DNA of 64,000 bases from Cellulosimicrobium terreum (GTDB taxonomy: Bacteria > Actinomycetota > Actinomycetes > Actinomycetales > Cellulomonadaceae): the NCBI GenBank assembly GCA_014803435.1, contig JACYFD010000004.1, positions 535,095 through 599,094 of the forward strand. Reading direction: 5' to 3'. The position numbers and the translations under genes were made by a program. Below the pieces are notes generated by a model that worked only from the letters and a program-made list of their open reading frames with translations, was not told where the DNA came from and made no database searches. Positions 59,243 through 59,618 of the stretch are shown here, in pieces (position 1 is the first letter of the stretch; every line of letters begins with the position of its first letter).

Positions 59243-59326
59243 GGGTTCCTCTTCTGTCGACGGCTCGGTCGAGCCGGTGGGTGCGATCACGGACTGTGCG
59301 GGGCTGGCGGTTCGGTGGTGCACGGG

Positions 59327-59373
59327 CTGCCACGGCCAGAGCCGGGTGGGCTGCCTGGTCGGTGCCGTGGCAG
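59327..59373 (-). promoter_or_regulatory. Inverted repeat in the cysK leader (attenuator candidate)
   Basis: CTGCCACGGC and GCCGTGGCAG form a perfect 10-bp stem enclosing 27 nt, between the cysteine-rich upstream ORF and cysK. A second hairpin (CGGCTCG/CGAGCCG, 59257-59272 region) lies immediately before the cysK ribosome site. These could be alternative structures of an attenuation system. Confidence 0.5.
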
Positions 59374-59433
59374 GGGCCGGGGCTCGAGGACGACAGGCTC
59401 GGGTGTGCGCGGTACGGCGCGCTCCGGCGGTCG

Positions 59434-59517
59434 TCAGCGACAGCGGAGACAGCGACAACAGGAGGTCCGCGCGACGGCGCGGTACGACGGCGTGGGATGC
59501 GCGTCGATCGCGGCCAT
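59434..59517 (-). CDS. Cysteine-rich leader peptide (27 aa) upstream of cysK
   Basis: A short ORF with a very strong ribosome site (AGGAGG 9-14 nt before the ATG). The product MAAIDAHPTPSYRAVARTS is followed by CCRCLRCR, so four of the last eight residues are Cys. Ribosomes starved for Cys-tRNA would stall at the end of the ORF. Poly-Cys leader ORFs are known to act as cysteine-responsive attenuators of cys genes in mycobacteria; this ORF lies 191 nt upstream of cysK and downstream of a good promoter. It is too short to be called by usual gene finders. Confidence 0.7.
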   Translation of the reverse strand: MAAIDAHPTPSYRAVARTSCCRCLRCR

Positions 59518-59588
59518 TCCTCGCTCCTCCTGGTCGGCGGCACCCGCGGGCGGCCGGCGACGGCCGGGCGACGGGATGCTCGGTACCG

Positions 59589-59618
59589 AGGCTATCGGTC
59601 CTTGTGGTGCGCGGGCAA
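59589..59618 (-). promoter_or_regulatory. Promoter of the cysK-cysE operon
   Basis: On the minus strand TTGCCC (59613-59618) and TAGCCT (59589-59594) are separated by 18 bp. Transcription would start near 59582, giving a 340-nt leader that includes the Cys-rich ORF, the 10-bp inverted repeat and the cysK start. Confidence 0.55.

Follow-up and report, generated by a model that had tools for sequence, protein, structure and literature searches.

A cysteine-codon leader ORF ahead of cysK-cysE in Cellulosimicrobium, and a stop-codon hairpin in its relatives, as parts of a candidate cysteine-responsive attenuator

Does a short open reading frame ending in cysteines, located ahead of cysK-cysE, act as a cysteine-responsive attenuator, and if so, through which output structure? 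The question arises on the minus strand of the window, which is the whole 64,000-nucleotide stretch of Cellulosimicrobium terreum DNA analyzed here. A sequence-only reading had proposed that ribosome stalling at Cys codons of this upstream ORF (uORF) could switch the operon through two candidate structures. Its assignment of the downstream genes was confirmed: cysK (cysteine synthase A, 58307..59242) scored 455.7 bits with TIGR01139 (curated cut-off 350.95), and cysE (serine O-acetyltransferase, 57673..58306, start approximate), which follows cysK, scored 232.2 bits with TIGR01172 over the open frame 57673-58437 (curated cut-off 210.65). The cysK start lies 191 nt past the uORF stop. The promoter-like pair that the same reading had noted (59589..59618) was also present, with TTGCCC (59618-59613) and TAGCCT (59594-59589) separated by an 18-bp spacer and the pair ending 71 nt before the uORF. 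Although a strict sigma-70 consensus scan of the leader reported no promoter, each of the 17 genus genomes examined has a TTGNNN-18-TANNNT pair that ends 67-93 nt upstream of that start codon. A minus-strand tRNA gene (59686-59756) lies a short way upstream of the cysK promoter, and between the two is a perfect 14-bp hairpin (59643-59676) that lacks a U-run.

The uORF itself (59517-59434, minus strand; MAAIDAHPTPSYRAVARTSCCRCLRCR) comprises 27 codons plus UGA, terminates in the eight residues CCRCLRCR, and is preceded by the Shine-Dalgarno sequence AGGAGG (59526..59531); AGGAGGAGCGAGGAATG is found in 17/17 genus loci. When both strands of the window were searched for Shine-Dalgarno-preceded short ORFs with at least three Cys among the last eight residues, it was the only one recovered. 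Because none of 3000 dinucleotide shuffles of 59243-59618 produced such an ORF, its occurrence is unexpected by chance. All four Cys codons, located in the tract TGT TGT CGC TGT CTC CGC TGT CGC TGA (59434..59460), are UGU, while Cys codon use in 20 of the 37 called window genes was 10 UGU and 66 UGC. Before the first Cys codons, CCTCCTG (59459-59465) complements CAGGAGG at the uORF ribosome site (59526-59532), and the two are paired in the predicted leader fold. Against Rfam release 15, neither the window stretch nor seven related loci gave a leader match; only tRNAs reached a gathering score.

Searching the 17 genus genomes for cysK gave 17 leaders, every one of which contains the uORF with its own ribosome site. 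In their alignment, two near-invariant blocks flank sequence that drifts. The first is the Cys tract with its stop; the second, GGCTC..GAGCC-NTCGACAGAAGAGGAA, is at the cysK ribosome site. In the window, the latter corresponds to a small hairpin, CGGCTCG-AC-CGAGCCG (59261..59276), adjoined by CGACAG beside the cysK Shine-Dalgarno AGAGGAA (59246..59259). This hairpin, one of the two structures originally pointed out, was found in 17/17 genus genomes, and no covariation test was possible as its stem never varies. The uORF is thus real and conserved in the genus. Four genus genomes (L095–L098) have a cysK just 83% identical to that of the window, yet a genus-like leader; the two placed in a cysK tree group with Promicromonosporaceae. 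In these four, cysK seems to have been replaced and the leader retained.

Further poly-Cys uORFs were observed when the window genome was examined for three families (PF01507, PF01053, and PF01077). One, MTTAARTLLVTSRHGMSVCALPCPRCCR (..CALPCPRCCR, with the end UGU-CGC-UGA), is located 141 nt before a PF01077 gene (L240), which we take to encode a sulfite reductase. Counterparts occur in 16/16 genus loci (L243–L258), the 17th genome having given no such gene, and a short GCGAGC..GCTCGC hairpin follows this uORF in most of the loci. The other, with the seven codons MNRRMCC or MTRRMCC, precedes a PF01053 gene, for which metY is our guess, in 6/17 genus loci (L234/L260, L261, and L273–L276); a conserved stretch, CAGCGCACGTTCGCCTGCC, is situated downstream. 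A −10-like element lies a short way upstream of both kinds, and they look leaderless, in contrast to the cysK uORF. The cysK uORF would very probably respond to cysteine.

Among the relatives, we compared the best 80 of 577 cysK loci, of which 20 have a uORF with a hairpin at its stop codon, 3 (two Cellulosimicrobium and one Oerskovia) have a uORF without the hairpin, and 57 have no such uORF. The hairpin-type uORF ends in UGU-CNN-UAG-RGCG, with the helix beginning at the G of UAG, two codons after a UGU. Typically, GAGCGCUGGC pairs with GCCAGCGCUC across a loop of 5-77 nt, and GCCC(C) follows. Two motifs outside the helix are also conserved in the related loci, namely UGUC ahead of the uORF stop and GCCC(C) past the hairpin. 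A covariance model built from the 20 leaders found matches, at E up to 0.1, in 183/221 genomes of the family and 23/25 of its genera, the window's genus being counted through one weak match; in the order, it matched 64/297 sampled genomes, 22 of these 64 belonging to the same family. We examined 70 of the 183 family matches (30 as listed and 40 chosen for spread), and each of the 70 lies ahead of cysK, 118-258 nt separating the uORF stop from the gene. The order-search set consisted of 49 loci (L182–L230), some from the same family, a few overlapping the 70, and two (L210 and L211) from one genome; 43 have cysK 89-235 nt downstream. The six weak matches without cysK (L219, L220, L221, L225, L227, and L230; E 8e-4 to 0.029) were taken as false.

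The helix was evaluated in two alignments. In the larger one (A2; 91 distinct rows, fitted to the model and retaining three antisense matches), 91.1% of helix cells are paired, 7/10 pairs changed on both sides (73 cells), and covariation is 0.258 vs 0.125 in shuffles, none of 500 reaching it, with slid versions at or below 0.083. A MAFFT alignment of the 20 leaders gave 88.0% paired cells and a covariation of 0.208 vs 0.125 in shuffles (0/500), with slid versions at or below 0.129. Here, besides the share of paired cells, only two measures exceed every shuffle. The count of pairs changed on both sides (4/10) was reached by 53/500 shuffles and that of further pair types by 331/500. The settings made by hand were the exclusion of a spurious L078 uORF, manual stops for L016 and L004, and, for the 20-leader set, placement of the 3′ arms of L016 and L008 by eye. 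When the leader is folded in full, the stop-codon helix is predicted in 81 of the 90 hairpin-type sequences. In a single-sequence test, the best helix was reached by 164/200 shuffles for the relative L021, 108/200 for L008, and 66/200 for L043. Some accepted relatives fail this test; the case for the hairpin rests on covariation. We consider it highly probable that the stop-codon hairpin is functional in the relatives.

The window's genus differs. In the window genome (G000), the hairpin model had no match, and the other 16 genus genomes contributed a single weak one (E 0.0888). A stop-codon hairpin considered for the window was rejected, as its best near-stop helix was reached by 33/200 downstream shuffles and begins away from the stop codon; candidates in L002, L003, and L004 were rejected as well, with the best helix reached by 199, 196, and 134 of 200 shuffles, respectively. 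One of these, L004 (Oerskovia flava), has the uORF without the usual stop hairpin. Its Cys-tract UGUUGUC complements GACAACA before the cysK ribosome site, but the resulting duplex does not outperform shuffles (z 0.06). A cysK tree of 89 rows took in 9 of the 17 genus genomes; 7 of those 9, together with Oerskovia, are placed in one group with Cellulomonas that bear the hairpin (97/89; bootstrap unsettled). From this placement, the window's genus is likely to have lost the hairpin.

What the window's genus and the hairpin type have in common is the uORF and a C-rich, G-poor linker after it. In the window, this linker (59261..59433) contains 48.6% C and 28.3% G, a C-over-G skew of 0.263 that exceeds those of all 25 other 5′ regions of the window (mean 0.04). 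Mean skew is 0.283 across the 17 linkers of the genus and 0.288 across 90 of the hairpin type, compared with 0.075 in 56 cysK leaders without a uORF (L002, L003, L004, and L011 having been excluded from these controls) and 0.035 (sd 0.126) in 83 other 5′ regions of related loci. A skew of at least 0.15 was reached by 88/90 hairpin-type linkers vs 14/83 control regions, and 7/83 control regions reach at least 0.26, that is, they are as C-rich as the window linker. Such a skew favors Rho-dependent termination, and the linker is a predicted Rho-loading region. On the basis of this composition, we give Rho an even chance of being the off-switch. Rho was already proposed for actinobacterial cys leaders in 2005, where the accessible part of the report calls the prediction weak (PMC1262725).

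The strongest alternative for the window's genus is translational attenuation. The Cys tract would pair just ahead of and over the cysK Shine-Dalgarno, CUGUC or CUGUCG in the tract joining GACAG or CGACAG; a stalled ribosome would free the site, while the small GGCUC/GAGCC hairpin would form locally. Such pairing accords with the near-invariance of both blocks in the genus and with the window's inverted repeat I2, which connects the Cys tract with the cysK Shine-Dalgarno. When the Cys tract is masked, the cysK ribosome site is predicted to open more easily, by more than 1 kcal/mol, in 15 of 19 leaders (the mean cost falling from 8.08 to 6.11), whereas a downstream mask does so in 4/19 and a 5′ mask in 0/19; the 19 are the 17 genus genomes plus L002 and L003, close kin that include two copies of the same leaders. 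Furthermore, the accessible text of PMC13236596 cites mycobacterial poly-Cys uORFs as translation attenuation, which argues for this mechanism over Rho. The direct complementarity, however, is weak: the mean z over 18 leaders is −0.81, a single one of the 18 gives 0.05 or less, and in the window the duplex does not outperform shuffles (z 0.29). There is no covariation between the two blocks, and some genus members lose pairs. Across 45 of the 90 hairpin-type leaders, complementarity averages z 0.20 and the mask has no specific effect (11/45, compared with 10/45 for the 5′ control and 0/45 for the downstream control), and we rejected ribosome-site sequestration as a general mechanism. For the window locus it is a live rival, to which we assign a tentative, clearly smaller chance than to Rho.

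Classical transcription attenuation, in which the inverted repeat at 59327-59373 or another hairpin would be an intrinsic terminator competing with an antiterminator, is very improbable: the 10-bp repeat (59327-59336/59364-59373) is perfect, and 2/100 linker shuffles hold one at least as long, but it is kept in 1/17 genus genomes and has no U-run, and no terminator-like site was found in the window leader. As a functional stem, the repeat is unsupported and probably incidental; the whole window leader folds no better than its own shuffles (z 0.08). The sequence-only reading is supported as regards the ORF and its Cys codons, which the alignment of cysK leaders found conserved ahead of cysK-cysE, and unsupported as regards the 59327-59373 stem as one of two alternative structures. 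As remote as classical attenuation is the idea that the uORF yields a small, Cys-rich protein with a function of its own, such as metal or redox binding, and that its proximity to cysK reflects operon organization, as the good ribosome site and Cys-rich C-terminus would allow, since the N-terminal part varies widely among genera whereas the sequence surrounding the stop codon does not change, and the last Cys codon is UGU in 43/43 further leaders, where UGC was equally permitted.

We therefore return to the reading in which a ribosome stalled at the uORF keeps transcription going. A ribosome awaiting charged tRNA-Cys at the UGU codons would shield the C-rich leader against Rho-type termination, and cysK-cysE would be on. 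With ample cysteine, the ribosome would finish the uORF and depart, leaving the linker bare, and transcription would end before cysK; in the relatives, the stop-codon hairpin would also form. In the window's genus, which lacks this hairpin, the linker would act alone, perhaps helped by base pairing of the Cys tract to the cysK ribosome site. Judging from ribosome footprints, a ribosome whose A site holds the last UGU would extend about 6-7 nt beyond the stop codon's first base. In the hairpin type, where the second-last codon is UGU followed by C in 90/90 leaders (selected by that pattern), a ribosome stalled at the last UGU would therefore cover GAGCG, the least-varying part of the stem. With the first five pairs covered in this manner, sensor and lock would be set to the nucleotide. 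We judge it slightly better than even that Micrococcales possess a cysteine attenuator in which the hairpin starts from the G of UAG and a UGU-waiting ribosome covers its first five pairs, and that the window's genus swapped this lock for another output and kept the sensor, which would amount to a natural exchange of expression platform. For the whole proposal, a cysteine-responsive attenuator in which UGU stalling turns cysK-cysE on, with a predicted Rho-type off state, our estimate from sequence is about 0.5.

The sensor is of a known kind. Poly-cysteine short-ORF attenuators of mycobacteria, reportedly described by Canestrari and coworkers in 2020, are said to be leaderless and to act through stalling-based control. 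They are likewise short ORFs with a terminal Cys run before cysteine or sulfur genes, for which stalling-based control is proposed, and likewise occur at several loci per genome (here cysK, the sulfite-reductase-type gene, and the PF01053 gene). Unlike these leaderless uORFs, the cysK uORF has a Shine-Dalgarno sequence and a promoter-like pair upstream, and for the stop-codon hairpin of the relatives we found no description. The mycobacterial poly-cysteine short ORFs were first noted in PMC4633059. Actinobacterial cys leader peptides (Seliverstov et al. 2005, PMC1262725), described in the available portion of that report for Mycobacterium, P. acnes, and B. longum, are also similar, with a Cys-codon run near the stop, no intrinsic terminator, and Rho proposed. 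That portion reports no conserved hairpin in the mycobacterial regions, unlike the relatives here, which carry a covarying one. The E. coli tnaC model cited there provides a further parallel, as a ribosome stalled at the uORF end is predicted to keep Rho off a C-rich leader; unlike in tnaC, the signal here would be scarce charged tRNA-Cys and not free tryptophan. Compared with the classical trp-type attenuator, there is no GC-rich terminator with a U-run, and the relatives' hairpin is mostly followed by GCCC(C). The Streptomyces lividans metL leader MSTTSDRTPATEATTTPGARCMCRRMCAF, located before metNIQ, is, according to the accessible text of PMC8079986, leaderless and Met/Cys-rich and ends near RRMC, like MTRRMCC here, but differs from the MTRRMCC loci in the downstream gene. 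In full-text literature, a scope that leaves most subscription papers outside, we found neither a leadered cysK ORF nor a stop-codon hairpin described in Micrococcales, nor the absence of the hairpin in the window's genus. A leadered cysK attenuator with a stop-codon hairpin in relatives that is absent from the window's genus thus looks new.

How actinobacterial cys leaders work without intrinsic terminators was left open in 2005, as far as the accessible part of that report goes (PMC1262725). The present locus would extend cysteine-sensing leader ORFs to cysK across Micrococcales, and the hairpin of the relatives represents a covarying RNA element whose predicted ribosome position is directly testable. 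Together, the sister genera may provide a natural experiment in which a common sensor is coupled to different output structures.
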